In this document: positions 2,265 through 49,334 of the stretch, piece after piece
Layout of the letters: every line of letters begins with the position of its first letter
How positions within the stretch are numbered: position 1 is the first letter of the stretch
Assembly: GCF_004684245.1 (NCBI RefSeq)
Contig: NZ_CP038452.1
Coordinates: forward strand, 558,001-622,000
Length of the DNA: 64,000 nt
Origin: Thermus caldilimi
GTDB taxonomy: Bacteria; Deinococcota; Deinococci; Deinococcales; Thermaceae
Reading direction: 5' to 3'
Notes under the pieces: generated by a model
Told to the model about the DNA's origin: nothing
The model's database searches: none
The model's input: only the letters and a program-made list of their open reading frames with translations
Position numbers and translations under genes: made by a program

Positions 2265-2273
2265 GGCACCCTG

Positions 2274-2306
2274 ACCCTAAGGGGCCCAGGTCAGGAAAAG
2301 GTCAAG
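2274..2306 (-). promoter_or_regulatory. Pho box plus -10 for the binding-protein operon
   Basis: Minus strand reads CTTGACC-TTTT-CCTGACC, two 7-bp direct repeats 11 bp apart (2289-2306), then 9 bp, then TAGGGT (2274-2279), then 9 bp to the ATG. The repeats occupy the -35 region, as in PhoB-activated promoters. Five other promoters here have the same spacing. Confidence 0.75.
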
Positions 2307-2326
2307 GGAGGCCCAGTGGGCCTCCC
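2306..2326 (-). terminator. Hairpin terminator after the first ugp-like operon
   Basis: GGGAGGCC / GGCCTCCC stem with a 5-nt loop, 17 bp past the stop of the binding protein that ends at 2344. There is only a short T tract, so termination may be partial. Confidence 0.5.
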
Positions 2327-2343
2327 AAAGACCCACGCAGGGA

Positions 2344-3627: not shown

Positions 3628-3641
3628 GCGACCTCACCTCC

Positions 3642-24721: not shown

Positions 24722-26428
24722 CTAAAAGAGAAAGTAGCGCTGGGCCAAGGGTAGACGCCCGGCCGGATGGCTGGTAATGGGTTGGCCGTCCACCCGCACC
24801 TCGTAGGTTTCCGGATCCACCTCGATGGAGGGGAGAACGTCGTTTAATCGCATGTCCCTTTTGCTAAGGTTTCGGACGCCCCCCACAGGAAGGAGCCTGC
24901 GCCGCAGGCGTGCCGGCAGGTTCCCTGATTCCAAGGAGGCCCTGGACACGAAGGTGAAGGCCACCTCTTCCAAGGCCCGACCAAAGGCGGCGAACATGGG
25001 CCGGTAGTAAACCGGTTCCGGGGTGGGGATGGAGGCGTTGGGATCCCCCATAGGGGCGGCCACAATAAAGCCCGCCTTAATGACGAGATCGGGTTTTACC
25101 CCGAAAAAACGGGGATCCCAGAGGACGAGGTCGGCGTACTTGCCGGGTTCCACAGAACCCACGTACTGTGCGATCCCGTGAGCGATCGCTGGGTTGATGG
25201 TGTACTTGGCCAGGTAGCGCCGGATGCGGAAATTGTCGTTCCTCTCCGAGTCCTCCGGCAAGGAACCACGTTCCTCCTTCATCTTGTGGGCTGTTTGCCA
25301 GGTGCGGAGGATGGTTTCCCCCACACGCCCCATGGCCTGGGAATCGCTGGACATCATGCTGATGGCGCCTATGTCGTGCAGGACGTCCTCGGCCGCCATG
25401 GTTTCTGGCCGTATGCGGGACTCGGCAAAGGCCACGTCCTCGGGGATCCGGGGGGAGAGGTGATGGCAGACCATCAGCATGTCCAGGTGCTCCGCCAGGG
25501 TGTTCTCCGTGTAGGGCATGGTGGGGTTGGTGCTGGAAGGAAGCACGTTGGCGTGGCCTACCACCTTCAGGATGTCCGGAGCATGCCCGCCGCCTGCCCC
25601 CTCGGAGTGGTAAGCGTGGATAGTGCGGCCGCCGATGGCCCTCAGGGTGTCTTCGACAAAGCCGCTTTCGTTCAAGGTGTCGGTGTGGATGGCCACCTGT
25701 ACGTCGTAGAGGTCCGCAACCCGCAATGCGACGTCGATGACCGCGGGTGTGGCGCCCCAGTCCTCGTGGATCTTCAATCCGATGGCCCCGGCGAGGATCT
25801 GTTCCTCCAGTGCGCCTACTAGGGAAGCGTTGCCTTTACCCAGGAGCCCGAAGTTGACGGGTAGCCCCTCGAGGGCTTCCAGCATGCGGTGGAGATTCCA
25901 GGGGCCTGGGGTGCAGGTGGTGGCCTTGGTCCCCTCCGCAGGACCGGTACCCCCGCCGATCATTGTGGTGATGCCGCTGTAAAGGGCTTCCCATGCCTGT
26001 TGAGGGGAGACGAAGTGGATATGGGCGTCGATTCCGCCGGCCGTGAGGATCTTTCCTTCCCCGGATATCACCTCGGTGCCGGGACCGATGACTAGACCGG
26101 GGGTTACGCCCTCCTGGACATCGGGATTGCCCGCCTTACCCAGGGCCACGATGCGGCCATCCTTGATCCCCACATCCGCTTTGACCACGCCCCAGTAATC
26201 CAGGACGATCACGTTGGTGATCACCAAATCCAGGGCTCCTTGCTCCCGGCTCAGCTGGGACTGGCCCATCCCATCCCTAATCACCTTGCCCCCGCCGAAG
26301 ACCACCTCTTCCCCCGGAACAGTCCGGTCCTCCTCGATTTCCAGCAGGAGGTTGGTATCCCCCAGTCTTATGCGGTCACCCTTGGTAGGGCCGTAAAGCC
26401 TGGCATAGTCTTCTCTCCGGAGCCTCAT
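24722..26428 (-). CDS. ureC: Urease alpha subunit
   Basis: 568 aa, standard length; the catalytic subunit that hydrolyses urea to ammonia and carbamate. Nickel ligands are in [14 protein letters not shown], the carbamylated lysine is in GLKIHEDWG, the flap cysteine is in MVCHHLSP, and the active-site Asp is in [12 protein letters not shown]. The start overlaps ureB by 4 nt. Confidence 0.98.
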
Positions 26429-33512: not shown

Positions 33513-34034
33513 ATGATGGGGGATACCGAGGACGCGGAGCTCCTCCGGCAGGTGACCCTGGGGAACGAGGAGGCCCTGCTGGCCCTGTACCGCCGCCATG
33601 CCTCTTATGTGCACGCTTTGGCCAGGCGGATCCTTAGGGATAAAGACGAGGCTAAAAACGTCGTCCAGGAAACGTTCTTGCGCATCTGGCACAAGGCCGA
33701 GTACTTTGACCCCGAGTTGGGAACGCCCCGCACTTGGATCCTCACCATCGCTCACCGCTTGGCCCTGAAGGCCCTGAAGCGGCGCCCGGATACCCTTCCC
33801 CTCGAGGACTGGGATGCTCCTGTGGAGAGCGTGGGCACGGAGGAACACCTTGACCGAATCCGGGTGGCTAGGGCCCTGGAGGCTCTGGATGGCGAGGAGC
33901 GGAGGCTCTTGGAGCTGGCCTACTTCTACGGCTACAGCCACAGCGATCTGGCCCTGATCCTGGGCTGGCCCCTGGGCACGGTGAAAAGCCGCCTGCGGCG
34001 GGCCTTGAAAAAGCTGGAGGTGGAGTTGAGATGA
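33513..34034 (+). CDS. ECF-type RNA polymerase sigma factor
   Basis: 173 aa. Region 2: LYRRHASYVHALARRILRDK and the region 2.4 segment VVQETFLRIWHKAEYFDPEL. Region 4: ALEALDGEERRLLELAYFYG then GWPLGTVKSRLRRALKKLE. It overlaps the downstream anti-sigma gene by 4 nt (ATGA). It probably directs the operon 33513-37309 and may autoregulate. Confidence 0.93.
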   Translation: MMGDTEDAELLRQVTLGNEEALLALYRRHASYVHALARRILRDKDEAKNVVQETFLRIWHKAEYFDPELGTPRTWILTIAHRLALKALKRRPDTLPLEDWDAPVESVGTEEHLDRIRVARALEALDGEERRLLELAYFYGYSHSDLALILGWPLGTVKSRLRRALKKLEVELR

Positions 34035-34696
34035 TCCATCCGGACCCGGATAGCTTGATTGCCCTGGCCCTGGATACCCTTCCCGAAGCTCAGCGGAAGA
34101 ACCTTATGGCTCATATCCGGCGGTGCTCTTCTTGCCGCGAGACCTACCGGCGCCACCTCGAGGCCCTCGCCCACCTGGCCCAGTCCCAGGAACCCTTGCC
34201 TGTACCGGTGGAATGGGAGCAGGAGCTCAAGGAATGCCTCAGGACATCCGCTCCACCATCGTTGCCTTCCCGTTTCCGTGCGCAACGCCGCGCCTTCCTG
34301 CTGGTCTTAGGAGGAGCCCTTCTGGGTCTGGTAGCCCTTTGGGCGTATCCCAAGTACCAAGACATCCTGGCCTGGAGGCGTTTCATGGCCCTTTCTTCCC
34401 AACCCGGGGCAAGGCTTATGCCCCTGGTGGATCCCGCAGGGTACCAGACGGGATGGGCCTTGCGCACTGCGGACGGGGGAGTGGTGCTCTACCTTAAGAA
34501 ACCGCCTCCTCCGGGCCGGGTGTATCAGGCGTGGTGGATCCAGGGGGAGGGACGCAAGAGCCTGGGAACCACGCCGGGCCGGATGCTGGAGGTTGGGGTT
34601 CCTCTGCCGGAAGGCAGCTGGCTGGGCGTTTCCGTGGAACCCCCAGGTGGAAGCCCATCACCCACCACCCCATCGGTGGGGAGGGCTCAACTTTAA
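34031..34696 (+). CDS. Membrane anti-sigma factor (zinc anti-sigma domain plus RskA-like domain)
   Basis: 221 aa. The N-terminal ZAS motif is HIRRCSSCRETYRRH (HxxxCxxC). One transmembrane helix follows (FLLVLGGALLGLVALWA, about residues 91-107). The external C-terminal domain has VYQAWWIQGEGRKSLGT, typical of RskA/anti-sigma-K. It would hold the sigma factor at the membrane until an envelope signal arrives. Confidence 0.85.
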   Translation: MIHPDPDSLIALALDTLPEAQRKNLMAHIRRCSSCRETYRRHLEALAHLAQSQEPLPVPVEWEQELKECLRTSAPPSLPSRFRAQRRAFLLVLGGALLGLVALWAYPKYQDILAWRRFMALSSQPGARLMPLVDPAGYQTGWALRTADGGVVLYLKKPPPPGRVYQAWWIQGEGRKSLGTTPGRMLEVGVPLPEGSWLGVSVEPPGGSPSPTTPSVGRAQL

Positions 34697-34724
34697 CTTT
34701 TTGGGGGAGGGAGGAGGGCGGAAG

Positions 34725-36134
34725 ATGGTTGGGAAGGACGTGGTCCGGGGTGCCTTGACGGGAGCAGGACTGGCGGCCATCGGCTGGGGTTTGTACCAGG
34801 GGTGGGGTCTGAGCCATCCCTTGCTCAACCTCTACGGCTGGATCACCTTCTGGCTTGGGGTCCCGAGCGTGTTCCAGTTCGCTCACAGGGTCTTCGGCTA
34901 CGGGAGTTGGGCAAGAACCTGGCCTTTTTCGGCACGGTGGGGCTCTGGCTTTTCCTGCACATGGCCTTGACCTGGCTTTGGCGGACTCGGGGCCCTGTGG
35001 CCCTCCCGACCGCCCTGGTGCTCTACCTCCTGCTGAGCGGATGGCTTGCCGGACTGATCTACACGGGTCTGCTGGCGCTCTTTTGGTGGAGGAAGCGAGG
35101 CCGAACCCACTTTAGAGCCGCAGGGGGCAGGGAAGGGGTTAGCCGCCGAAAGCTCTTGGCGGTGCTGGGCGTGCTGGCTACCAGGAACGGGAGACAAGGG
35201 GCCAAGGCCCAGTCTGCTACACCCTCTAGGATCGCGTGGGACAGGGTTCCCGGCCTCTCCCTGGAGGTTACGCCCCAGGGAAAACTCTACATCGTGTCCA
35301 AAAATCCCGCCATCTTCGACCCCAACCTTAAGGGGAGGCCCTACAGCCTAGAGGTGGGCGGACTTGTGGAAAAGCCCCTTAAGCTCGGCCTGGAGGAGCT
35401 AAAGGCCCTGCCTGCCAGCCACCTTTGGAACACCCTGGTCTGCATCTCCAACCCAGTTGGGGGTGATCTCATCGGTTGCGCCCGGTGGACGGGGGTGCCC
35501 CTAAAGTTCCTGCTGGACAGGGCTGGTATGAAGCCTCAGGCCAGATGGCTGGTCTTTGAGGCTGCGGATGGGTACCGGGAATCCCTGCCCCTAGCGGAGC
35601 TTCCCGCTCAGGCCCTGATCGCCTACGCCATCAACGGTGAGGAGCTTGAGCCCCGCCATGGCTACCCGACGCGCCTGATCCTGCCTGGCCGGTATGGGAT
35701 GAAACAACCCAAGTGGCTTACGCGTATCCTGGTGCTGGAGAGGGAAGAGGTGGGCTACTGGGCCCAGCGGGGTTGGAGCCGGGAAGCAGTGATCCGCACC
35801 CTAAGCCGGATCGACGTCCCCAGACCTGGCGTGCAACTGAAGGAAGGGGAAGAGGTGCTTGTCGCCGGGGTGGCCTATGCGGGCGGGCGTCCGCTGGAAC
35901 GGGTAGAGATCTCCACGGATAGAGGGCCTTACGTGGCAAAGGGCCGAGCTCAAGCCACCCCGCGGCCAGTTTGCCTGGCAGCTATGGGCTTTGCCCTGGA
36001 GGCCCCTCCAGGGCAACTACACCCTAAAGGTGCGGGCGGTGGAGGTGGGTGGACGGGTCCAGGATCCCGTGGACCGGGAACCCTTGCCCGAGGGGGCGAG
36101 CGGCTACCACACGGTTCGGGTGAGGGTCAGGTAG
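34725..36134 (+). pseudogene. Membrane-anchored molybdopterin-dependent oxidoreductase (sulfite-oxidase fold), two frameshifts
   Basis: An N-terminal domain of about four helices (from MVGKDVVRGALTGAG) leads to SRRKLLAVLGVLA, a Tat-like or anchor segment. The catalytic domain has LWNTLVCISNPVGGDLIG (candidate Mo-binding Cys), GYPTRLILPGRYGMKQPKW, and a C-terminal dimerisation domain. Two single-base changes are needed: one missing G near 34902-34904 and one extra G at 35924-35926. After correction the protein ends HTVRVRVR at 36134. It is probably functional or only recently broken, since flanking operon genes are intact. Confidence 0.8.
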
Positions 36135-36191
36135 GGGGCCAGGAATCCAAACGACCCCAATAGGGGATATACCCAGGTGGGAGGTTACGAT

Positions 36192-36962
36192 ATGAGGCGA
36201 AGGGAAGCGTTAAGGGTGGTGGGCGGCACGGCGCTTTGGATCCTGGGCCGCGGCCTGGCCCTGGGCCGGGCTACTGGGGAGCCCATCTTCCGGCGTTATC
36301 CGGAACTTGCAGCGGACGTAGCGGTTGCCCCGGATCGCCCCTTTGTGGTCAAGGGTTTGGGGGAAACCCCCTTGGGCACTTCGGTTCTAATCCGCACCCG
36401 CACGGAACAACCCCTCCATTACCACCGGGAGAGGCTGGAGGTGGCCCTGGTGCTCCAGGGGGAGGGACGTCTCGTGGTGGGAGGCAGGGAGGCCACCCTT
36501 CGTCCCGGCCAACTGGTGGTGATACCCCCTATGACCGCCCACGCCTTCGTGGGGCAGATGGACATCCTCTCCCGTTTCAGCCCAAAGCTCATGGGGGATG
36601 TGGTCTTTGTTCAGGCAGGCTCCGGCCCCAACGAGGGCACGCCTCTGGTTCTGGGATATCGGGCCCCGGAGATCCCGCAGGACCGCCCTTTTGCTGCCAC
36701 TCCCTTGGCCAATGCTCCCCTGGGAACCGTGGTGGCGGTGGCCACGCGCCTGGGCCAGCCCTGGCACTACCACCGGTCCAAGGATGAGCAGATTTATGTG
36801 GTGGCCGGGGAGGGAGTGGCTCAGATGGAGTTAACCCGTGAGAAGGTAGGACCGGGGAGCCTGGTCCTGGTACCCGCCGGGGCCATCCACCAGTTCCAGG
36901 GAAGCCTTCAGTTTGTCTCCGTGTTCGGGCCTGCCCTCATGGGTGATGTGGTCTTTTTATGA
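36192..36962 (+). CDS. Secreted bicupin protein
   Basis: 256 aa. MRRREALRVVGG looks like a Tat signal. Two cupin domains follow. In each a histidine pair (LHYHRERLEVALVLQGEG; WHYHRSKDEQIYVVAGEG) and a later histidine (PPMTAHAF; PAGAIHQF) could bind a metal. Both halves end with FS/FGPxLMGDVVF, showing internal duplication. GGGAGG precedes the ATG at 36192. The stop overlaps the cupredoxin start. Confidence 0.8.
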   Translation: MRRREALRVVGGTALWILGRGLALGRATGEPIFRRYPELAADVAVAPDRPFVVKGLGETPLGTSVLIRTRTEQPLHYHRERLEVALVLQGEGRLVVGGREATLRPGQLVVIPPMTAHAFVGQMDILSRFSPKLMGDVVFVQAGSGPNEGTPLVLGYRAPEIPQDRPFAATPLANAPLGTVVAVATRLGQPWHYHRSKDEQIYVVAGEGVAQMELTREKVGPGSLVLVPAGAIHQFQGSLQFVSVFGPALMGDVVFL

Positions 36963-37309
36963 GGTTGGCGGTTCTAGGCCTCGCCCTTGTTCTGGCAGGC
37001 TGCTTTCCCCGGGAAGGAGTGCCCTCAGCGGACTTGGAGCCTCATGCCGCTCCCTCTCGGGAGGTGGTGGTATCGATGAAGGATTTCACCTTTCGGCCGG
37101 ACACCCTCCGGATTCCTCCGGGAACCGCCGTGGTCTTTGCCAATCAGGGCCGGTATCCCCATACCGCCACGGAGAGCGGGGGCCTCTTCGATAGCGGGGT
37201 CTTAGCCCCGGGTGAGCGTTTCCGTTACACCTTTACCCTCCCTCGGGAATATTCGGTTTACTGCAAACTCCATCCCTACATGGTGCTCCACATTATGGTC
37301 GGCCCTTGA
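36959..37309 (+). CDS. Cupredoxin-type lipoprotein
   Basis: 116 aa. The lipobox LAGC (Cys15) anchors it in the membrane. The type-1 copper ligands are the His in RYPHTATE, the Cys and His in YSVYCKLHPYM, and the Met of that loop. A probable electron carrier for the molybdopterin oxidoreductase encoded upstream; the 4-nt overlap supports co-translation. Confidence 0.88.
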   Translation: MRLAVLGLALVLAGCFPREGVPSADLEPHAAPSREVVVSMKDFTFRPDTLRIPPGTAVVFANQGRYPHTATESGGLFDSGVLAPGERFRYTFTLPREYSVYCKLHPYMVLHIMVGP

Positions 37310-37784
37310 AAAAAGGATAGGCGGCCCTGCACCTTCAACATCCCGCGCTTGACCTTTTGGCCTGAAGTCAGGTCTGGTGAACCGAGGCTGGGAGTTCCAT
37401 GGGGAAGGGCACTGGTAGCAGCTTGTACCTGACCCTTTTGTCCCATGGCAGTGTTGAGGTTAACGAGAAATTCAGGCCACAGGGACAGTGCGTCTGCCTC
37501 CCTCTGCTAGGGGGTTGGTTGGATGGGCTGAGGCTACAGGGTGGGGGATTCCCAAGGGGGGCCGAGGGATCGTGAAGGAAGAGCTAGAAGGACATAAGGC
37601 TCGGGTCGGAAATTACGAAGCGTGCCGCGGAGTCGTCCGTGCCCGCGGTTGCACGCTTGCACAAGGGAGCTAGTTCAGAACAGCGTTTACCGGGGGACTC
37701 GGGCAAAGCCCTGTTCCAGCATCCTGGGCTCTGGCGGAAATGGGTAGGGGCTTGGGCTAGAATACTATCGAAGGAGCAAGTCAC
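37310..37784. other. Intergenic region without a supported gene
   Basis: About 475 bp between the sigma-factor operon and the Nudix gene. Short frames exist but none looks coding. A box like TAGAAT-ACTATC with AAGGAGC precedes the Nudix ATG. Confidence 0.45.
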
Positions 37785-38222
37785 ATGGCGAGCAAACCCG
37801 TCCGGCATAGCATAGAGTGCTGGATCATTTGTCGCAGGGTGGGTGCAGAGGATGCCGTTCTTCTCTTACACGTGGTGGAGGAGCCTGATATCCCGGGCGG
37901 CTTCTGGCAACCTATTACGGGAGGAATCAAGGAGGGTGAAGCCTCGCACGAAGCTTGCGTTCGGGAGATCTATGAGGAAACATCCCTGAGAGTACGGGCT
38001 GAGGATCTCCACCAGGTTCCCGGGCACTGGGAGTTTCAGCTACCCCATCAGGTCATCCGGAAAGATCTGTATTGGGTGGAGGTTTCTGAAACCGCCATTC
38101 GTATTGCCCCTGAGGAGCATGACGACTGGAAGTGGGTGCCCATCTCCGCCGTGGAGTCGGAGCTCCACTGGGAATCCAATCGCCGCACGTGGAAGGCAGT
38201 GCTCAGCTGCCTCCGATTATAA
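37785..38222 (+). CDS. Nudix hydrolase
   Basis: 145 aa. The Nudix box GGIKEGEASHEACVREIYEE is complete (GxxxxxExxxxxxxREuxEE) at about residues 46-65, so pyrophosphohydrolase activity is likely. The substrate cannot be told. GC is lower than in the core genes and it begins the accessory zone, so horizontal origin is likely. AAGGAGC lies upstream of the ATG. Confidence 0.88.
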   Translation: MASKPVRHSIECWIICRRVGAEDAVLLLHVVEEPDIPGGFWQPITGGIKEGEASHEACVREIYEETSLRVRAEDLHQVPGHWEFQLPHQVIRKDLYWVEVSETAIRIAPEEHDDWKWVPISAVESELHWESNRRTWKAVLSCLRL

Positions 38223-38245
38223 GTTAGAAAGTAGGGTCACTGGGC

Positions 38246-38470
38246 TTACGCCCCCGATTTTGTACTCTGCCCTTCTCCTCCATGTGAGGCTTTTCCAGCC
38301 TCCGCTAAGGCCTCCTTTCTCCTCCCTGGTGACGGGCGTAGCCGGTACCTTGCCTCGCGGCAAAGAACGGCTCCATCACCGGGTTCCCCCGAGGACCTGT
38401 CAGGCTGTCCGCTTCCTTGAGGGGGCGTGTTCTGGAAACCCTCTGGCGATCCAGAAGAAGCAACTCTCGT
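38246..38470 (-). repeat. Diverged dispersed repeat, copy A
   Basis: Shares long stretches with copy B (40571-40930): CTCCATGTGAGGCT, the GACGGGCGTAG...GTACCTTGCC block, CATCACCGGG, and TTCTGGAAACCCTCTGGC. On the minus strand it ends in a hairpin GGGGGC-GTAA-GCCC with a GNRA-type loop. The matching parts are non-coding or degenerate. Possibly an IS200/IS605-type end or a structured RNA remnant. Confidence 0.6.
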
Positions 38471-38789
38471 TCCCCGACGGTAGTGCCGCGGCATTGCTCA
38501 GCTAGCGTCAACCTGTAGGAGGCTCACGGCCCTCAGGTTGCCTCGGGTAGGACGCAACCAAGAAGGAAAGGGAAAGAGGCCTCGAGGACCCCAGGTTCAA
38601 CCCTGGCCGCCCGGAGGCCGTGCCACCTCGACCGGAAGGCTTTCAGGCCTTCCACTTGGTGTTGACGGACCTTTGACGGATCACGAGGCACGCTGGTTCT
38701 GGAGGTGAAGAAGCTGCATAGGAAAGACCATTTGACGCAGGTTGGGGCGTTTTTTAGGCGCGCTGCGGGTGCTTCTAAGTGGGTGGCCC
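38471..38789. other. Intergenic region without a supported gene
   Basis: It contains one conspicuous stem (CCAGG-TTCAAC-CCTGG near 38602) that resembles a tRNA T-arm, but no cloverleaf can be completed around it. Confidence 0.4.
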
Positions 38790-39038
38790 GTCTCCGTTTC
38801 CTACCGGCGGGACCCGGGAGCCCTGCAACTATTGCGGGAGGTTAAAAGCAACGTGCGCAAGACCTTTAATTTCGTAGAACCCCTCCGTGGCCTGGGCGAG
38901 GAGGTCTATTGGGTGGATCACTTTCGCCTCTACGTTTGGGTCAAGGGCGGGCTCCTCGTCATCGACCATGGGTTCACGGCTAACCAGAAGGAGCTGTCCA
39001 TGCACCTAGCGAAGCTGGCAATGGGGCGGATCCGCTAA
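38790..39038 (+). pseudogene. Truncated tandem copy of the following secreted protein
   Basis: The frame reads SVSYRRDPGALQLLRE and later YVWVKGGLLVIDHGFTANQK, ending LAKLAMGRIR. The next gene has FVCKFKGGLLMISVQNKD and LAKKALGRIK in the same order. The N-terminal half with signal peptide and CDLVTKEEV motif is missing, so it is a 5'-truncated paralogue. Confidence 0.65.
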
Positions 39039-39146
39039 GGGGGTGGTGGATGGGAAGGTCTGAGGCGTTGGCTTTCTGGCTTTGGATCACCACTGTGCGG
39101 GTTTTTAGGAGCGTGCTCCGGTCTGGGATAACGGGAGGTGCGAAGC

Positions 39147-39596
39147 ATGAAAGGAAAGCTCGTGGTCGTTTTGGCGGTAGCCCTGTGCCCGGTGCTCTTG
39201 CCTTTCGGCAAAGCCGGTAGCGGGGGCAATGCCTGTGATCTTGTGACCAAGGAGGAGGTGGAGGAAATCATCGGACAAAAGATCAATACCGTGGAGGTGC
39301 AGCCAGGGTACGGGAACTGCATCTACTCTACTAAGGAGAAATTCCTTAACGAGACCTTGAAGATTCCGGTCGTTACCATTGGTTACACTCGGAGCGACGT
39401 TCAGGAACGGTGGAACTCCTGGTCCTCCATGCCGAAGAGCGAAACCATCAAGGGACTTGGCGATGGGGCCGTTTGGTCCCCCACCTACGGATTTTTCGTC
39501 TGCAAATTCAAGGGAGGGCTCCTGATGATCTCGGTACAAAACAAGGATATGGCCATTAAGCTTGCGAAGAAGGCTCTGGGACGCATAAAACCGTGA
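39147..39596 (+). CDS. Secreted protein with CDLVTKEEVEEIIG motif, unknown function
   Basis: About 149 aa from the ATG at 39147 (GGGAGG upstream). Signal peptide to about residue 23, then NACDLVTKEEVEEIIGQ, a motif type shared by DUF3558-like exported proteins, a second cysteine in YGNCIYS and a third in FFVCKFKG. The function is unknown. A truncated copy precedes it. GC is lower than in the core genome. Confidence 0.65.
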   Translation: MKGKLVVVLAVALCPVLLPFGKAGSGGNACDLVTKEEVEEIIGQKINTVEVQPGYGNCIYSTKEKFLNETLKIPVVTIGYTRSDVQERWNSWSSMPKSETIKGLGDGAVWSPTYGFFVCKFKGGLLMISVQNKDMAIKLAKKALGRIKP

Positions 39597-39639
39597 CGTG
39601 CGTGGGTTCGGAGACACAGCCACCCGGCTTATCTGTCGC

Positions 39640-39989
39640 TGGAGGGGCCCATTCAACGGGCGTTCCTGGCGGACCGTATCCGCAGGGGCAAGGCCCTTGC
39701 GGCAACATCCCATGGGGCGGCTTCAGGGATACTGCCTAACAGGAGCCGCCTGGTGGGCCGGGCAAGCCTCCCCGAGGCACTGGACACTGGAAGGGCGGTC
39801 GAAGTCCCTGGCGGTGGTCTGGACCTGGAGGAGGCGGGAATCGGTAGGACCGCCCTAGCCCGCCACTTCCTGGAGGGTAAGCCCCACGCTCTCCTTGCGG
39901 CACACCCGGAAGATGCCAACATCCCCTACACTTCCGTGGTCCGCTGGCTGGGCTTTAACCCTGGGCAGCCTGAAGAGGATTGGGCTTAG
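39640..39989 (+). pseudogene. Fragment of a BTAD/AAA transcriptional regulator (ATPase part)
   Basis: In one frame SRLVGRASLPEALDTGRA and EEAGIGRTALARHFLEGKPH read like the start of the AAA_16 domain that follows the BTAD domain in SARP-type regulators. The Walker A is degraded (EAGIGRTAL, Lys replaced by Arg). It ends after VVRWLGFNPGQPEEDWA with a stop. Both ends of the original gene are missing. Confidence 0.55.
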
Positions 39990-40468
39990 ACGCTGAGCCC
40001 GTACTTCTGGAACAGGGCTTCCATGAGGTCCATAAGCTCCTCCTCCCTTTCCTCCCGATAGAGGCGGCGGATCCTTTCCACCTCTTCCTGGGGCAGCACC
40101 TCCATGAGGAGGTAGGAGCTGGCCTCGGCGGTGCGGGACACCGCATAGGCGAGGAGGGCCTCGAGGGCCTCGGCCCGGGCTCCTCCAAAGGAGTCTTCGG
40201 TGTAAACCAGCGCCTCCACGGTACGGCCCCCTAGGGGTCCCCGGCCCAGATCCCTCAACACCACCCCCACCCCGGAAACGGGGCCGCCCAGAGGAATCTG
40301 CTCGATGAACTCCCCGAAGGCGGCGGGCTCGTGGGGGTTGCGCGCCCGGTACTTGTTGGTGTACCGGGCCAGATTCTCCATGGGGACCCGGAACCCCAGG
40401 CCCAGCACCGGGCCGGAGACCTCCAGCATCACCCTCTTGCCCACGGTTTGGTCTGGCAACTTGTACAT
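39986..40468 (-). CDS. Conserved-looking protein of unknown function
   Basis: 160 aa, no signal peptide or membrane segment, rich in Glu and Arg at the C-terminus (EEVERIRRLYREEREEEL, likely coiled coil). No frameshift and normal host-like GC, which sets it apart from the debris around it. I do not recognise a family. It converges with the AAA fragment and overlaps its stop by 4 nt. Confidence 0.6.
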   Translation of the reverse strand: MYKLPDQTVGKRVMLEVSGPVLGLGFRVPMENLARYTNKYRARNPHEPAAFGEFIEQIPLGGPVSGVGVVLRDLGRGPLGGRTVEALVYTEDSFGGARAEALEALLAYAVSRTAEASSYLLMEVLPQEEVERIRRLYREEREEELMDLMEALFQKYGLSV

Positions 40469-40570
40469 TTCCTACCCCGGTATGCAGTCATCTTAGCACA
40501 CACCCGATACGGACCAGGGCCAGGTCCAGAAGTTGGTCAATCTCTCTCCTGGGCTCTTCGCCCCTTAGGG

Positions 40571-40930
40571 GCTTGCGCCCCCAATCTTGTACTCTCTAGC
40601 CCCCTCCTCCATGTGAGGCTCTACGAGCCTCTGCTAAGGCTTTCCTGGGTGTCCGGTACCCCAGCCCAGAGTGGAGCCGCTTTGCGACCCCCACCCCAAG
40701 TGAACCGTCCCTCATGGTAGCCGCAACCTCTCCGCTATCACCTCCTTCAGCTCCGTCAGGTCCTTCGCCTCCAAGAAGAGGTCCCGGTTCTCCCCCTTGG
40801 TCACGGGCGTAGTCCGTACCTTGCCCCGCGAGAAAAGCGACTACATCACCGGGTACCCCCGAGGTCCCCTTAGGCTGTCTGCGTCCTTAAGGGGACACGT
40901 TCTGGAAACCCTCTGGCCGTCTCCAAGAAG
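40571..40930 (-). repeat. Diverged dispersed repeat, copy B
   Basis: Matches copy A (38246-38470) at both ends, with about 150 bp extra in the middle. The extra part on the minus strand reads ENRDLFLEAKDLTELKEVIA before a stop, so copy B may keep the 3' end of a lost gene. On the minus strand it ends in hairpin GGGGGC-GCAA-GCCCC, a GNRA loop like copy A. Confidence 0.6.
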
Positions 40931-41182
40931 CGACTGCCCCATCCACTCGTGGCTCAAGTCAGCCGTCAGGCTAGGTTTCCTGGCTCCCCTCTGGTCGTGG
41001 TAAAATGATGGCTTGCGGTAATCCTCCCCTCAGCTCTTGGATAGCAACCTTTGCCCGCTTCCGTACCTCCAAGCCGCCTCGGGGAAAGCGGAACACCGCC
41101 CAGGCCAGCATCAGCCTTGAGCTAGCTTGCAGACACTCGGCATTCTGAGTAGGGGAGTCAAACCCCTGGCCAGGGCAGGAAC

Positions 41183-41308
41183 CTAGCCTTGGGGCTGACG
41201 CCTGGCCAAAGCGATGCACTCCCCAAGAGACATTTTGGCTAGCTCCCCTGCCTTAGCATCACGCAAAGGGTAGAGGTTGCCTTTTAGGAGGGCGATTGCC
41301 ACTTCCTC
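41183..41308 (-). pseudogene. Possible UPF0175-type antitoxin remnant
   Basis: About 41 codons: EEVAIALLKGNLYPLRDAKA followed by GELAKMSLGECIALARRQ and a stop. The AKxGELAxMSLxE pattern is that of UPF0175 proteins. The 5' part is lost. Confidence 0.4.
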
Positions 41309-41349
41309 CTTGCCAATGGGTTGTTTCGAGCTCCCATATCATATCTTCT

Positions 41350-41585
41350 TCGCGTACTCCTTCGCCAGGGTGTTGTCCGAGAAGCAGGAGGCCCGCCAGC
41401 TCAGCAACTCAACAAGCTACGGGCTCCGCCCGTGGTCCCGGTACTTCCACAGTGTGTTGGAATTAATACCGTAGGCACAGGCGATCTCTACCGCTCTCTT
41501 CTCGCCTTTGACGGCCTCCACAGCGATCTGGAACTTCACCTAGGGTGGAAGGGACTCGGCCTTTTTCGCTTTTCTTTCCCTTCCC
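41350..41585 (-). pseudogene. IS3-family transposase OrfA remnant
   Basis: Minus strand reads KFQIAVEAVKGEKRAVEIAC then AYGINSNTLWKYRD, the helix-turn-helix of IS3/IS911 OrfA. A shifted KRKRPSPFHP block just before it matches the usual N-terminus. Stops and frameshifts break it, and no OrfB or inverted repeats are seen. Confidence 0.7.
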
Positions 41586-41830
41586 TCGATGCTAAGCGTA
41601 TGGCCTAAGAGTCGCGTGTCCCCTTAGGCCTACCCTGCACTGTGTTCCAGCACTTCTTTTGAGCCCACCTGGCGCGCCTGGGGGTGCACGTGGCGGTTCT
41701 CAACCTGAATCGCCACCACGGGGGGTGGCACGGCTACAGGGGTGGGACTACATCACCTCCCTGACTGAAAGAGGCGCGGACGTGAGCGTAAAGTTTAAAC
41801 CATCGGAACCGCCCGGCCTCGACCTAGGCC

Positions 41831-41936
41831 GCCCAACAGCTGGAGCATCACAGCTTCCACTCTCCTGGAACAATAAGGGCACGGTAACACGGTCTTTTCC
41901 TCGGCTAAGAGGGTTGGCTCCAGAGAGTTGTTGGGC
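41831..41936 (-). other. attC recombination site of the GNAT cassette
   Basis: On the minus strand it begins GCCCAAC (R'', RYYYAAC) and ends GTTGGGC (R', GTTRRRY), perfect complements 106 bp apart. The inner arms GGAGC (L'') and GCTCC (L') also pair, with extra bases between R'' and L'', as expected for extrahelical bases. It lies just downstream of the GNAT stop, the normal place for an integron attC. Confidence 0.75.
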
Positions 41937-42779
41937 CCGCCTCATAATTCTTGTGCCTCCTGTGGTGAAGGAAAGATATACCATCGGTAACGAGCAATCT
42001 CCCGAAAGCCGATCCGCCGATATACGGTTTCGCCCATCGGAGTTGCTTGAAGGGAGGCCAGCCGAGCTCCGCGGTCGAAGCCGGCGGATATAACAGCGCG
42101 GGTGACCAACTCACCGAGGCCTCGCCTCCGATACGCCGGGCTTACACCGACGTGGATTACCTCGGCGACCCCATGGCTCACGTACACCATCGCACCTGCC
42201 ACTGGGCTGCGCTCGAGATAGGCAACAATGGCCACGATATGTGGCGCCGATAGGCTTCTCACGTCTGGATACGCCGCCCACCAAGTGTCGGCCCGTACCC
42301 CCAACTCCCGAAAGCCGCTGGAGACCGCGGTGAGGAAGTCCTCCCGCTGCTCATCGGTGTTGACCTCCTGCATCGTGACGCCAGGAAGAACCGGGGGCGG
42401 CTGGATGGGGGCTTCGAGAACCATCTGGGGGCTGTCGCTATCAGCCTTGCGGCCGATGGATTTCATGGTCGCATCTACATCGGGATCCAGCGGCCCCATC
42501 GCATGCAGAGTAAAGCCGCGCCCTCTTTCCTCGAAGAACCTCCGCGCCCGGCTGACAACCTCCTTTGCCGGAAGGCCGGGATGCACCCTTAGGGCGCCGT
42601 TCCATAGGGCAGGGTCCAGCGGCGCGCCCGCATAGAGGAGCAAGCCGCCCTCCTCGTGCACCACACCGCGGGACCGCCGTGTAATTTCACGAATGGTCTC
42701 GGCGAGATTCTGATGGACCAGCTCGACTATATCGGCTTGGTACATCTTGTGTGGGTGTAACAGACCGGCCGAGGCCTAA
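41837..42779 (-). mobile_element. Integron gene cassette carrying a GNAT acetyltransferase
   Basis: Bounded by the G/TTRRRY cut points of two attC-like sites (42774-42841 upstream, 41831-41936 downstream). It holds one ORF in the standard orientation, starting within 40 bp of the upstream core site GTTAGGC and ending a few bp before the downstream attC. About 943 bp, typical cassette size. No integron integrase lies in the window, so this is an orphan (CALIN-like) insertion. Confidence 0.7.
41942..42745 (-). CDS. GNAT-family N-acetyltransferase (cassette gene)
   Basis: 267 aa. The acetyl-CoA-binding motif A is in EVIHVGVSPAYRRRGLGELV (RRRGLG, about residues 212-217), and YRRIGFREIARY is motif B near the C-terminus. 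The N-terminal 120 residues are a diverged partner domain. Codon use and GC (clearly lower than in neighbours) differ from the host. Substrate unknown. Acetyltransferases are common in integron cassettes. Transcription may come from the promoter at 42929-42958. Confidence 0.85.
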   Translation of the reverse strand: MYQADIVELVHQNLAETIREITRRSRGVVHEEGGLLLYAGAPLDPALWNGALRVHPGLPAKEVVSRARRFFEERGRGFTLHAMGPLDPDVDATMKSIGRKADSDSPQMVLEAPIQPPPVLPGVTMQEVNTDEQREDFLTAVSSGFRELGVRADTWWAAYPDVRSLSAPHIVAIVAYLERSPVAGAMVYVSHGVAEVIHVGVSPAYRRRGLGELVTRAVISAGFDRGARLASLQATPMGETVYRRIGFREIARYRWYIFPSPQEAQEL

Positions 42780-42841
42780 CGACCCGCGTTTCAGCAGCGG
42801 CCAAGGGTAGCGAAGCCGTCCGCTAGAAACGCAAGCTGGGC
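42774..42841 (-). other. Second attC-like site, upstream of the GNAT gene
   Basis: 68 bp on the minus strand: GCCCAGC (R'', one mismatch to RYYYAAC) to GTTAGGC (R', perfect GTTRRRY). Inside, GCGTTTC...AGCGG pairs with CCGCT...GAAACGC with unpaired bases. It should be the attC of a preceding cassette whose gene is largely gone; a short frame ending LADGFATLGRC runs into it. Confidence 0.65.
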
Positions 42842-42928
42842 GCATGCGCATGCCGCCACAAGACCGCTCAGCTTCACGCGCCGTCCTCCGCCGCAGGCAA
42901 GTCACAAACGATAGAAGCACGTACAAAC

Positions 42929-42958
42929 ATTATACGTGCAGCCGCAGGCAAAAGACAA
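42929..42958 (-). promoter_or_regulatory. Promoter facing the GNAT cassette
   Basis: Minus strand TTGTCT (42953-42958), 18-bp spacer, TATAAT (42929-42934). It fires through the upstream attC into the GNAT gene, the role a Pc or cassette-borne promoter plays in integrons. Confidence 0.6.
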
Positions 42959-42980
42959 CAGCCGGTGATTGGCCCACACT

Positions 42981-43160
42981 CTACCCCGCCATCCTTAAGA
43001 AGACAAGGCTACGGATGAGGTTGTGCGCCAGGAGAGTGAGGTTAACCCAGGCCACCAGTCCCCAGTAGGACCGCGGCGCCAACCGGTGCAACCCAAAAGA
43101 CTGCGCTATCGCGCCAAAACGTGTCTCAATCGAGTTCCGCACTTTTTCTAAGACCCTAGT
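42981..43160 (-). pseudogene. C-terminal fragment of an IS982-like transposase
   Basis: Minus strand reads VLEKVRNSIETRFGAIAQSF, then GLHRLAPRSYWGLVAWV and LLAHNLIRSL before a TAG. The 'xxxIETxFxxLxxxF-L-R-RS-WGL' pattern is the DDE transposase C-terminus of IS982-type elements. The rest of the gene and the inverted repeats are absent. Confidence 0.6.
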
Positions 43161-43836
43161 CGTATGGCTGACCCTTCCTTGCTACCTCCTGGAAACCACT
43201 ACCCCCACAGGTGCGAATGGCCAGCGTCGGCACCCCCTCCAGCCAGCGGAGGCCCTGGTCTAACAACACCGGACCCAGCCCTTCCACCCCTACTACCAAC
43301 TCCCTTGCCCAGGCTGCCCGGCTTTTGGGGTCCTTTGGCGTGAGCGAGGACCTGGCCCTGGGGCGAGGACCTGGCCCTGGGGCTGGGCTGGGCCTATTTG
43401 GATGCCCAGGAGCCCCAGTCTGTTTTGGGGGTTCTGAACGAGCACCCAGGTGAGCACCTGAGGCGGGCCCATGCCTGCTTGGGCCTAGCCTATCGCAGCC
43501 AGGCTCTCCTAGCCTTGGGCCGGGAGGAGGCTACCTACCAAGCCCTGACGGAGGCCCTGGCCCAGGTGGCCGTGGCGGCCTTGCGGCTCGGGGAGGCGGC
43601 GTAGGCCCTCTTGGAGCGGATTCCCCTCGAGGCCTTGAGTCCTGGCGACCACAGAGGCCACGAGGAGGTTGGCTTCGCCCTCGGCCTTGGGTCCCCCCAA
43701 ACCTGTCATCCTCCAGTCATCTTGGGCTACCTAGTCTAGTTTTACCCGGCTGGGTTTACCGCTGGGTAGGGCATGGAGGGAAGAAAAAGGGGCACATCAC
43801 TGAATTTGTCGGGCAAGTTTAGCCTAAGGAGATACC
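43161..43836 (+). pseudogene. Decayed TPR-repeat protein, C-terminal part of a regulator
   Basis: From about 43370 one frame reads LGWAYLDAQEPQSVLGVLNE and AHACLGLAYRSQALLALG, Ala/Leu-rich helical repeats of TPR type, with a stop at 43604. The earlier part has several frameshifts and a 19-bp tandem duplication. It may be the 3' end of the same class of SARP/BTAD regulator as the fragments at 39640 and 59515. Confidence 0.45.
43343..43381. repeat. 19-bp tandem duplication
   Basis: The unit CGAGGACCTGGCCCTGGGG occurs twice in tandem in the decayed TPR gene. Its length is not a multiple of three, so it shifts the frame. Confidence 0.75.
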
Positions 43837-44579
43837 ATGAAAGGGAAATTCGAGAAGATCACGGGCAAGAGCTTTGATAATCCAGATGAAACGCGGCGAC
43901 CGTTCGAAAAAGGCAAGATTGACGTGATCACTGTCGGGGGGCTGCCATTCTACCGTGAAACCCTTGCGCCGGGGTGGCAGTGGTCCAAGCACGTCAAGCC
44001 GGTCGTGGGTGGCAACAGCTGCCAGCGGTTCCATGTGAAGATCTTTCTCGCAGGACGGCAACGGGTCCGGATGGATGACGGTACCGAGATGGAATTCGGT
44101 CCGGGGGACGTGGCGGTCATGCATCCTGGGCATGACGCCTGGGTAGTGGGTGATGAAGCGAACGTGTTGATCGAGCTGGCAGATATCGTCAAGATGCCTG
44201 CCGACGTGCCCGAAGAAACGCTGACAAAAATCACCCTCGAAGCGGTTCGGCGCTTCAACGAGGCCATCAACAGGCATGATGTTGATGCGGTGATGGCAGC
44301 CATGACCGAGGACTGTGTGTTCGAAAACACCTACCCGCCCCGGATGGCGCACGTTATGAGGGCCAGGCGGCCGTCCGATCTGTGTGGGAGCGATTCTTTG
44401 TGGCCAACCCAGATGCGCACTTTGAGGTTGAAGAGATGTTTGCTGTTGCTGATCGCTGTGTTGTTCGATGGATTTACAGAAAGACGAAAGAAGGAAGGCC
44501 CTGGTATCTGCGCGGCGTGGATGTGTTTCGTGTGCGGGACGGGAAGGTAGCGGAGAAGTTCTCCTACGTCAAAGGTTAG
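43837..44579 (+). pseudogene. Cupin plus SnoaL-like two-domain protein, one frameshift
   Basis: Residues 1-125 are a cupin: RFHVKIFLAGRQRVRMDDG and FGPGDVAVMHPGHDAWVVGD. From about residue 128 a SnoaL/NTF2-like domain follows (AVRRFNEAINRHDVDAVMAA, MTEDCVFENTYPP). The second half continues only after adding one base in the C4 run at 44338-44341, giving AVRSVWERFFVANPDAHFEV to VFRVRDGKVAEKFSYVKG. About 55% GC and atypical codons point to recent acquisition; function unknown. AAGGAG lies before the ATG. Confidence 0.7.
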
Positions 44580-44979
44580 GTTGGTGACTCCTTCAGATGG
44601 TCCTCCGCATGGCCTAAGCCGAGGATGCCATTCGATGAACAGCGTTGCTCAATACGCGACGTCGCCCCGGTGCGCTTTGCGGCGCAGTCGGGTGCGGATA
44701 GGGGTGCGTAACAAGATTCCTAAAGTGGCGACTTGATCTTCGATAGAGCGACCATGGGTGCAGGTTCGGCGTAATGCGCCTTGGCCGCCCTTTTGAGCGG
44801 GGATTGGGGCTGGACGGTTCCGTTTCTCAAAGCTGGGGCGGCCCGGTTTACCCGGCGGAGGCCAAACCCCTGGCTGAAGTGCGCATCGGAGCACAGGGGG
44901 TGCGGTATTGGTCCAGATATGTTGCCAAAAGGGCACGCATGGATGCTAAGGAGTCAATCCGTTCAGAAGCCCCTCGAAC
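44580..44979. other. Region without a supported gene
   Basis: About 400 bp of mixed GC. Frames on both strands lack recognisable motifs. Confidence 0.4.
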
Positions 44980-45339
44980 CCGTTCCCGTCACGCTTCGGT
45001 CATTATGCCCTTGTACCGGGCATGGGTGAGCACTGGGCTCAGCCGCAAAACCTTCCCTTCGGACCTATCTTTGGGGTCATGAAGGAGAAGGTGGTGTTCG
45101 TGGAGATCATGGTTTCCCAGGCCGACTTTGCCGCTGGCAAATCCTGGACCGAGGCGCTGAAGCCCTTGACGGGCCATGCTGTAGACCATGTGGACCTGGA
45201 GTTCTTGCCCAAGGGCCATGAGGGCTACGAGGTCCCGCACTACGACATCCATGCCTACTTCGTGTCCCACCAGGAGCACCTGGGGAACTGCCCTGCCCCC
45301 AAGCCCGCCCCCAAAGGAGTGCCCCACATGAAAGAGTGA
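44980..45339 (+). pseudogene. 3' part of a DUF5602-like exported protein gene
   Basis: The frame reads ALVPGMGEHWAQPQNLPFGP, then HVDLEFLPKGHEGYEVPHYD and IHAYFVSHQEHL, resembling histidine-rich DUF5602-type proteins. The N-terminus with signal peptide is missing, and no start signal is seen before 45022. The stretch is host-like in GC. Confidence 0.5.
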
Positions 45340-45539
45340 GGGAGCCGCTGGGTGACAATCATCGCCCACTGGGGCTTTGAGCGCTTTGTGCGGGGCTATA
45401 AGCTGGCCGGCGGAGTGGAGGGTTCTGCCTCCTTCCGCCGGCCCGCCTACCCCTGGCGAAATGAGGCGGGCTACGAAGGTTGCCCGGATCTATACCATCG
45501 AGTTTGTAGGGCTGCCCTTCGGATGAGGAGGTAGGATAT

Positions 45540-45676
45540 CGCAACCCCAAACGACATTTCACGCTGGTCTTGCCCGCCCCGTTGGGTCCCACTAGGATGA
45601 GAGCCTCGCCTCTCTCCACAGTGAAAGAGATTCCATCTGCTCCTGTGGGTAGGGAAGGAAAAGGGCCTCTAGCCAC
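45540..45676 (-). pseudogene. Fragment of an ABC transporter ATPase
   Basis: Minus strand reads ISFTVERGEALILVGPNGAG followed by KTS: the strand before Walker A and the Walker A itself of an ABC ATPase. The Q-loop, signature and Walker B are gone. Confidence 0.6.
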
Positions 45677-45940
45677 TCCTATTCCCAGCGCTCTCCCGGT
45701 CAGGAGAGCAGGCCTACCACGCAGGGCTTCCCTCGAGGCACCCGGGGTGTGAACCCGGTAAGGGAACCCGGGACTAAGGGAGTTTGAAGACCGTTCGTTA
45801 TCAGCTCGTGAAAAAGAACCGTGGGAGCGCCCTGCGGGGCAATGCCTGAGTGAAGCCCGGATCGTCCTTTGGCTTCAGTCCAACACGCTTTCATTTGGCC
45901 TTCAGGGGCCAGGGTTAAAGTAGGCAATAGGAGGCAGAAC
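45677..45940. other. GC-rich structured intergenic block
   Basis: Several short self-complementary stretches (for example CCCGGG...CCCGG and GCCC-TGC-GGGC) but no gene before the DUF1800 start. It could be another mobile-element end; I could not assign it. Confidence 0.35.
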
Positions 45941-47149: not shown

Positions 47150-48337
47150 ATGGATCGGCGCGAGTTTTTGCAAAAATCCCTGCTTGCCCTGGCTCTGGGC
47201 CAAGGGGCACCCTCCCTGTTGGTGCGTACTGCCCTGGCCGCCAAAACCCGGGGAAGGATCCTGGTGGTGGTCAACCTCTTCGGGGGCAACGACCAGCTCA
47301 ACACCCTGGTGCCCTACCGCAACGAGCTCTACCATCGCCTCAGGCCCAACCTGGCCCTGAAGGGGAAAGAGGTGCTGGATCTCGGGGTGCGGGGCAAGTG
47401 GTTGGGCCTGCACCCGGCCTTGCGACCCCTGATGGCCATGTGGGAAAAGGGGGAGCTGGCCCTCATTCCCCAGGTGGGGTACCCCAACCCCAACCGCAGC
47501 CACTTCATCTCCACGGCCATCTGGCACACCGCTGACCCTGATCGGCGGGCCCAGACCGGCTGGCTGGGCCGCTGGGCGGATGGGCAGGAGGACCCTTTCT
47601 GCGAAACCTTCCTGGGGGGTGCTGCCCCCCTGGCCCTCAGGGGCGAGCGGCGCACCGCCCCGGCCATCGCCAGCATCGATGCCTTCACCCTCCGGCTCAC
47701 CCCGGCCCTCCAGCGTGCCTTTGAGGAGGAGGCCCGCCACCCGCGCCAGGGCACGGCGGAGGAGATTCGGCGGGCGATGCTTTCCCTCCGGGGGGCGCTA
47801 GACCGCGTGGGCCGGCTGCGCACGGTGAAGAACCGGGCCCAGTACCCGGAGGGCGCCTTCGGCCGGAGCCTGGCGGACATCGCCCGGATGATCGCAGGGG
47901 GCCTGGAGAGCAGCGTCTACTACACCACCCTGGGCGGATGGGACACCCATGCCAACCAGCCACCCCGCCATGAGGAGCTTCTGGGGCAGTTGGCCCAAGG
48001 GCTGGCGGCCTTGCGGGAAGACCTCCGGGCCATAGGACGGGACGGGGACGTGCTGATCCTGATCTTCAGCGAGTTCGGCCGCCAGGTGGCCGAGAACGCC
48101 TCCCTGGGCACGGACCACGGCGAAGGAGGGCTGATGCTGGCCCTGGGGCCCGGGGTAAACGGGGGGCTCTACGGCGACGAACCGGACCTCGAGGACCTCA
48201 GCCTGAATGCCCTCAAGTACCGAACAGACTTCCGCCATGTGTACGCCACGGCCCTGCAGTGGATTGGCGCCGACCCCAAGGCCGTGCTGGGGGCGGAGTT
48301 TACCCCGATGGGGCTCCTGCGGAACGCAGGGTCGTGA
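47150..48337 (+). CDS. DUF1501 family exported protein
   Basis: 395 aa. MDRREFLQKSLLALALGQGA is a Tat-like signal. NLFGGNDQLNTLVPY, HFISTAIWHTADP, LGGWDTHANQP and FSEFGRQVAENASLGTDHG are conserved DUF1501 blocks; the last resembles alkaline-phosphatase-superfamily metal sites (a sulfatase-like fold). Co-transcribed with the DUF1800 gene. Confidence 0.92.
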   Translation: MDRREFLQKSLLALALGQGAPSLLVRTALAAKTRGRILVVVNLFGGNDQLNTLVPYRNELYHRLRPNLALKGKEVLDLGVRGKWLGLHPALRPLMAMWEKGELALIPQVGYPNPNRSHFISTAIWHTADPDRRAQTGWLGRWADGQEDPFCETFLGGAAPLALRGERRTAPAIASIDAFTLRLTPALQRAFEEEARHPRQGTAEEIRRAMLSLRGALDRVGRLRTVKNRAQYPEGAFGRSLADIARMIAGGLESSVYYTTLGGWDTHANQPPRHEELLGQLAQGLAALREDLRAIGRDGDVLILIFSEFGRQVAENASLGTDHGEGGLMLALGPGVNGGLYGDEPDLEDLSLNALKYRTDFRHVYATALQWIGADPKAVLGAEFTPMGLLRNAGS

Positions 48338-48381
48338 TCCGGGATGACACTTCGCAGGGCGATAAGGTTGATTAGTGTGTT

Positions 48382-48401
48382 CGCGAAAGGTACATTTCGC
48401 G
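48382..48401. promoter_or_regulatory. Perfect inverted repeat before the recombinase gene
   Basis: CGCGAAA-GGTACA-TTTCGCG: 7-bp arms and 6-bp spacer. Extending to 11-bp arms keeps 9 of 11 pairs. The 11-6-11 layout is that of Xer/dif sites, but the arms match the dif consensus only partly. It could equally be an operator of the recombinase promoter (TATACT at 48409-48414). Confidence 0.5.
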
Positions 48402-48404
48402 CAT

Positions 48405-49334
48405 ATGTTATACTACCCCGTGGAACCCGGTCTTATTTGGAAATCCATCGGCATTAAAAAGCCTGAGAAGGCCCTTCAACCCCTGGCCCCCTATGCCGAA
48501 TACCTCCTTTTGGAGCGGGGATACTCCTCCAGGGGGGTGCGCCGCTACCTCCAGGACCTGGCCCTCTGGTTTCGCTTCCTCCAGGAAGAGGGTTTCACCC
48601 CGGGCCCTGAGGCGGTCCGGGCGCTCCTCCTCAAGGAGCGTTGGGCCCCAAGAAGGGTGCAGGGGTTCTTGGCGGCCCTCCGCAGCTATTACCGCTACCT
48701 GGCCCAGGTCAAGGGAGAGGCCGTGTCCGATCCCACGGAGGGCATCGGCCGCCCCAAGGCCGGGCGCAGGCTTCCCTTGCACCCCGCTCCCGAGGAGCTC
48801 AGGCGTTTCCTCGAGGCCCTGGAAACCGAAAGGGAGGCCCAGCTCCTCAGCCGCCTGGCCCGGTTCCTCTACGGCACAGGGCTTCGCATCTCCGAAGCCC
48901 TTTCCCTGAAGGGGCGGAACGTGATCCTCGAGGGCTCGGTTCCCGTGGCCATCCGGGTGGTGGGCAAGGGCAACAAGGAAAGGCTGGTGCCCCTTTCCAG
49001 GACCGCCCAGGAGGTGCTTTTGGAGCTGGGGCCGCCCCAGGGTAATGTGAGTATTTTCACGTTTGCTCAGGGAAGGCACCGGGGCAGGGTCCCTTCCGCC
49101 CGGTACGTGGAGGCCAAGTTCCGGGAAGCGGCCCTGACGGCGGGCCTGGATCCAAGGCGCTTCACCCCGCACAAGCTCCGCCACGCCTACGCCACCTTGC
49201 TGGTGGAAAACGGCGTGGAGCTGGATGCCGTAAAGGACCTTCTGGGCCACGAGTCCATCGCCACCACCCAGATCTACCTGCACGCCTCGAGGGAGCGGCT
49301 CAGGGAGGCGGCCTCGAGGTTGCCCGAGCTTTAA
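48405..49334 (+). CDS. Tyrosine recombinase, XerC/XerD type
   Basis: About 309 aa. N-terminal SAM-like core-binding domain (YLLLERGYSSRGVRRYLQDL), then the catalytic domain with Arg in GTGLRISEALSL, Lys in GKGNKERLVPL, HxxR in HKLRHAYATLL, His in LLGHESIATTQ and the Tyr nucleophile in IYLHAS. It lacks the extra patch expected in integron integrases. Start uncertain: ATG 48405, or GTG 48420 if the TATACT box at 48409-48414 is the -10. The longer frame from 48375 crosses the inverted repeat. Confidence 0.88.
   Translation: MLYYPVEPGLIWKSIGIKKPEKALQPLAPYAEYLLLERGYSSRGVRRYLQDLALWFRFLQEEGFTPGPEAVRALLLKERWAPRRVQGFLAALRSYYRYLAQVKGEAVSDPTEGIGRPKAGRRLPLHPAPEELRRFLEALETEREAQLLSRLARFLYGTGLRISEALSLKGRNVILEGSVPVAIRVVGKGNKERLVPLSRTAQEVLLELGPPQGNVSIFTFAQGRHRGRVPSARYVEAKFREAALTAGLDPRRFTPHKLRHAYATLLVENGVELDAVKDLLGHESIATTQIYLHASRERLREAASRLPEL

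Follow-up and report, generated by a model that had tools for sequence, protein, structure and literature searches.

The window (the whole 64-kb stretch of Thermus DNA analysed herein, from genome G000) carries on its minus strand a gene for a GNAT-family N-acetyltransferase, which is flanked by two inverted-repeat sites, site A directly behind the stop codon and site B just upstream of the gene. A preliminary description had read both as attC sites enclosing an integron cassette without a local intI, and both motifs lie where it had placed them. The features of the locus and its immediate surroundings are as follows:

40518..43649, strand not given: 3.1-kb mosaic block that holds the probable array fragment and is missing from T. 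thermophilus TTHNAR1 plasmid 4, which is collinear on both sides
41204..41567, strand not given: remnant of a dispersed repeat, probably an IS, beyond the site A end of the probable array fragment, with matches elsewhere in G000 (1295843, 1309195) and in other Thermus-group genomes
41831..41936, minus: site A, which may be the attC of the GNAT cassette in degenerate form (R'' GCCCAAC at 41930-41936, R' GTTGGGC at 41831-41837)
41837..42779, minus: predicted GNAT cassette (943 bp), running from the R' crossover of site B to R' of site A
41942..42745, minus: GNAT-family N-acetyltransferase, cassette cargo, 267 aa (Pfam Acetyltransf_1, 33.6 bits, over the cut-off)
42774..42841, minus: site B, attC of the cassette upstream (R' GTTAGGC at 42774-42780, R'' GCCCAGC at 42835-42841)
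42842..42965, minus: 3' tail of an upstream cassette that is truncated; its homologue is the first cassette of an integron in genome G059
42929..42958, minus, towards the GNAT gene: sigma-70-like promoter TTGTCT-N18-TATAAT (consensus scan 10/12)
42979..43142, strand not given: remnant of a dispersed repeat, probably an IS, that cuts the upstream cassette short, with 70-80% matches in tens of Thermaceae genomes

The search for GNAT homologues proposed in the preliminary description yielded distant relatives only, the best at about 30% identity (E 1e-17), and no close relative was found in the 111 genomes of the phylum, the plasmids, the genome contigs (pattern scan) or the viral contigs. A blastn search of plasmids with sites A and B gave no match either, and AlphaFold, run on the protein without relatives, returned a pLDDT of 43.5. 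No second copy of the GNAT cassette was found, and mobility of the cassette is putative. The lower GC content noted earlier proved to be slight (61.8% in the GNAT gene vs. 64.0% in the window). As for the inward-facing TATAAT promoter, the sequence TTGTCT-18-TATAAT is present, but it sits in the upstream cassette remnant, and the single promoter-like match compares with about 0.4 expected by chance. The GNAT gene may be transcribed from this promoter-like sequence, although its expression is a conjecture, because the promoter lies in the cassette remnant and has no conserved copy in L043, the G059 integron described below.

The two sites flanking the GNAT gene

Three attC covariance models were built for the analysis: R1 from 34 attCs that lie upstream of intI in named genomes outside Thermaceae, R2 from 25 attC sites from Thermaceae and Pyrinomonas, and R3 from 150 attC sites, with the window and the homologue of B left out. 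The 17 pairs of R1 covary (88% of cells paired vs. 75% in shuffles and 20–45% in slid controls), and on attC-bearing loci R2 places the sites at 23–65 bits in consistent orientation. Site B, a 68-bp imperfect stem, is the top attC match in the 64-kb window with all three models, scoring 14.5 bits with R1 (E 0.14), 35.2 bits with R2 (whose 25 training rows contain the homologue of B) and 27.3 bits with R3 (E 1.2e-4). Searched with R2 across all 2.45 Mb of the genome, it is the sole attC match, at E=1.7e-5. The site has an L''/L' stem with extrahelical bases and a significant covariance score (R3, R2). Its R' box (GTTAGGC) fits GTTRRRY exactly, whilst R'' (GCCCAGC) shows one departure from RYYYAAC, an A-to-G change where the homologue in L043 has GCCCAAC. 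With R3, B scores below that homologue (27.3 vs. 44.7 bits). Site B is a genuine attC, slightly decayed.

Site A is different in kind. It spans 106 bp, begins 5 nt past the GNAT stop and has fully complementary R''/R' boxes (7/7), but its scores with R1, R2 and R3 (10.3, 11.6 and 9.3 bits; E 1.5, 0.83 and 4) are at noise level. The register in which its arms pair is asymmetric, with spacers of 6 and 2, and neither an L''/L' stem in the canonical register nor a significant score was found with the three attC models. In shuffled sequence, perfect R''/R' inverted repeats are expected at ~0.18 per strand per 64 kb; because such pairs are this rare, the placement of A behind the stop is unlikely to be accidental, and simple arithmetic from the shuffle rate puts the chance of a perfect pair starting within 10 nt of the GNAT stop at roughly 3e-5. 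At best, A is a degenerate or atypical attC. The earlier claim of two attC sites, and the covariance-model check suggested for it, was thus borne out for B, by model scores and homology, but not for A.

Among the remaining matches, a weak one at 47344-47407 was set aside as chance, as it scores on both strands and lies inside a coding region. An Rfam scan of the window matched no attC family, and its only match was the 5' ureB sRNA (RF02514, 76.9 bits), located at 25993-26274 on the plus strand in the urease region.

The integron crossover rule is G^TTRRRY (PMC12901181), and within R' of site B the crossover is placed between 42780 and 42779. The upstream boundary of the predicted cassette is marked by the R' of B, which ends 28 nt before the GNAT ATG, and by a break in homology at the crossover (see below). 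At the downstream boundary, R boxes lie directly behind the stop, in a site that reaches no more than 9–12 bits with the attC models; since A fails every one of these models and is without canonical L boxes, the 3' end of the GNAT cassette is set by the identity and position of its R boxes alone.

Homology to a Meiothermus-type integron

The segment 42773-42899, which comprises site B and the tail upstream of it, is 74% identical to positions 1829-1945 of L043 (blastn E 3.5e-17, about 1e-17), a locus on contig 19 of G059, in the same genus group as G056 (Meiothermus luteus, NZ_QWKZ01000144). The counterpart of B there is the attC at 1830-1886, and gapped alignment extends the similarity to about 42965. 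No other long match to 42773-42899 was found in the 111 genomes of the phylum, which held one further match of 32 bp only. L043 encodes an integron integrase (414 bits with TIGR02249) whose ORF stops short at 321 aa and leaves the final 26 positions of the model uncovered, and it carries two attCs in the same orientation (44.7 and 35.2 bits) as well as an attI whose sequence also occurs in Pyrinomonas and several Meiothermus-type genomes, as far as the base at which the cassettes diverge. The relatives of this integron are found in M. luteus KCTC 52599, G061, G067 and G069, and it is shared with Pyrinomonas methylaliphatogenes K22.

In L043 the match covers the 3' end of the first cassette together with its attC, and the similarity ends exactly at the attC crossover base (core site): from there, local alignment scores 68 towards the attC and 7 towards the cassette (shuffles mean 9.0). 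The two loci thus agree in an attC with its upstream tail (B and 42842-42965 in the window), in the same orientation and in the same place relative to the next cassette. They differ in that L043 has intI, attI and, at the position of the GNAT gene, a cassette with a short-chain dehydrogenase (SDR)-like ORF, whereas the window has neither intI nor attI. Such a break at the crossover is the signature of cassette joining by an integrase: two different cassettes stand behind the same attC, joined at the crossover base, as integron integrases join them, and this is accounted for neither by an IS nor by a hairpin formed by chance. Together with the attC score of B and its homology to a cassette end in a sister genus, this upholds the earlier reading of a cassette without a local intI.

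Two other explanations bear on these observations. That the sites are chance hairpins of a GC-rich genome, with no integron origin, would agree with their simple energy folding, which gave nothing out of the ordinary (z −0.61 to −1.49, flanks included), yet this explanation is contradicted by the attC model scores and by the similarity of B and its tail to the end of a cassette linked to intI, and we regard it as scarcely credible. A less extreme possibility is that B is a real attC remnant to which the GNAT gene does not belong as the neighbouring cassette, A being an unrelated inverted repeat and the adjacency a product of chance or of IS rearrangement. Dispersed repeats are indeed abundant in the region and A scores at chance level with the attC models, whereas the homology ends exactly at the crossover base, the ATG follows 28 nt past R' with the gene in cassette orientation, and perfect R boxes lie 5 nt behind the stop; taken together, these make a fortuitous neighbour unlikely.

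Surroundings and proposed origin of the probable array fragment

Neither of the further components of a complete integron was found. No intI in G000 or in 26 other Thermus-group genomes scores above the TIGR02249 cut-off, and a blastn comparison of 40500-45000 with the Meiothermus-type attI loci matched only the attC end of L043/L027. The genome-wide search for intI and further attC sites that had been suggested as a check gave no intI over the cut-off and B as the sole attC (R2). The nearest tyrosine recombinase, a XerD-like protein encoded at 48375-49334 (6 kb away), was rejected as the integrase of the array, being far below the IntI cut-off and kept in all Thermus-group genomes.

Dispersed repeats lie on both sides of the fragment (41204-41567 and 42979-43142) and are probably IS remnants, although a transposase was found in neither. 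At a larger scale, blastn shows window positions 34000-40517 and 43650-45867 to be adjacent in L187: both flanks match T. thermophilus TTHNAR1 plasmid 4 collinearly at 89–97%; since this plasmid is without 40518-43649, the fragment lies in a mosaic block that was either gained here or lost there.

The locus is a real integron remnant, CALIN-like, and with a probability of about 0.86 we consider it a fragment of an integron cassette array, the integrase gene of whose source integron is gone. In the mechanism that we propose, an integron integrase, present in a past host or supplied in trans, would have recombined at the R' box in the attC of an older cassette (site B) and in this way placed the GNAT cassette behind it, the source presumably being a Thermales integron. 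intI, attI and most of the older cassette would later have been lost, truncated by IS activity or left behind on transfer, and the leftovers in Thermus would be the 3' tail of the older cassette with attC B, the 943-bp GNAT cassette and the degenerate attC A. Such an array fragment would have no integrase of its own for mobilisation. In having an attC and a cassette without intI, the window resembles a CALIN (cluster of attC sites lacking integron-integrase), for which the IntegronFinder 2 definition asks for at least two attC sites by default (PMC9024848); it differs in that only one of its attC sites passes the models, A offering R boxes only. The better description is an array cut short, consisting of the tail of one cassette and the GNAT cassette, stranded among IS-like remnants.

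Several further observations concern the wider neighbourhood. Window positions 25500-45867, ~20 kb with urease, urea transport, molybdopterin oxidoreductase and cupin genes, are collinear at about 95% with TTHNAR1 plasmid 4 and here lie within a 2.45-Mb contig. The cupin/SnoaL gene region at 43650-44392 is 92% identical to M. luteus (G056:C192:27253-27997), and this similarity begins at 43650, the same base at which the T. thermophilus plasmid resumes; a recent exchange between the genera Thermus and Meiothermus would account for the region, of which G000 has a second copy (80–82%) at 248433. Two ORFs at 38742-39038 and 39138-39596 have no Pfam match and are alike in their C-terminal parts (KGGLL..., ...AKLAMGRIR / ...AKKALGRIKP), and are probably a diverged tandem pair.

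Integrons and intI-less cassettes in Thermaceae and Pyrinomonas

Our literature search found no attC-type integron for this phylum, and the one "super-integron" claimed in Thermus is, by its own description, a phage region that has attL and attR (PMC5529391); as far as the literature searched goes, an integron remnant in Thermus is unreported, and with the present locus Thermus joins the organisms that carry integron cassettes. Seven genomes of the order, six from the family of Thermus, score above the cut-off of TIGR02249, and the Meiothermus-type genomes carry intI-bearing integrons along with scattered attCs. In addition, two other Thermus-group genomes, G001 and G007, have strong single-attC cassettes (49 and 44 bits with R2) and no intI over the cut-off, and hence integron cassettes without intI recur in the Thermus group:

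L182 (G001:C13:13500-20500), ORF 1148-3652, attC 3661-3732: fused type II methylase/restriction enzyme (PADLOC MTase_II, E 1.5e-267), attC 49 bits
L153 (G007:C1:274000-283000), ORF 3794-4213, attC 4247-4315: SgcJ/EcaC-family gene near lepA, attC 44 bits

Both resemble the window in combining one gene and one attC in a genome without intI over the cut-off, and differ in having canonical 3' attCs, with no upstream attC found at either. The G001 pair would represent a restriction-modification system as an integron cassette, and the G007 cassette at lepA is a candidate for an attG-type insertion. The latter raises the question of whether the GNAT cassette, too, was put directly into the chromosome as an orphan by an integrase acting at a non-classical attG, without ever having been in an array here. 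Single intI-less cassettes beside ordinary genes, such as that at lepA, would fit, and insertion at attG is described in work cited in PMC12901181. We nevertheless judge this very unlikely, given that upstream of the crossover lies a full attC with a cassette tail like that of an integron cassette, not host sequence, and that the T. thermophilus allele is without the 3.1-kb mosaic block, not without the 943-bp cassette.

The statement that such a cassette would be unusual for the lineage needs amending, given the intI-bearing integrons within the family and the single-attC cassettes of G001 and G007. Because thermophiles carry intI-bearing integrons and appear to exchange them, an orphan cassette in Thermus is less surprising, and better explained, than had been held. 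The finding also points to the intI-bearing integrons of the sister genus Meiothermus and of the hot-spring acidobacterium Pyrinomonas, which make integron-borne gene exchange among thermophiles directly testable. Its main interest, more than the GNAT cassette itself, is an integron lineage in Thermales whose cassettes reach Thermus. On balance we lean slightly towards the view that an integron lineage has long been resident in Thermaceae and is native to them (with its own intI clade and attI, shared with a thermophilic acidobacterium), whose cassettes, including restriction-modification genes, intI-less Thermus would repeatedly receive as stranded cargo. In the IntI tree the Thermaceae integrases group together (95/84), with the bootstrap not settled and the Pyrinomonas row unusable, as its span is not in one frame.

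The Pyrinomonas integrase (L059, P. methylaliphatogenes K22) is 98% identical to the Thermaceae query over a match span of 944 bases that is not in one frame, and Pyrinomonas and G067 (L039) have attI and a first cassette (an N6-methylase gene) in common, at 79% DNA identity over 638 bp. Thermophiles of different phyla thus appear to exchange such elements, and transfer of the integron between the acidobacterium and a Meiothermus-type genome appears to have been recent.
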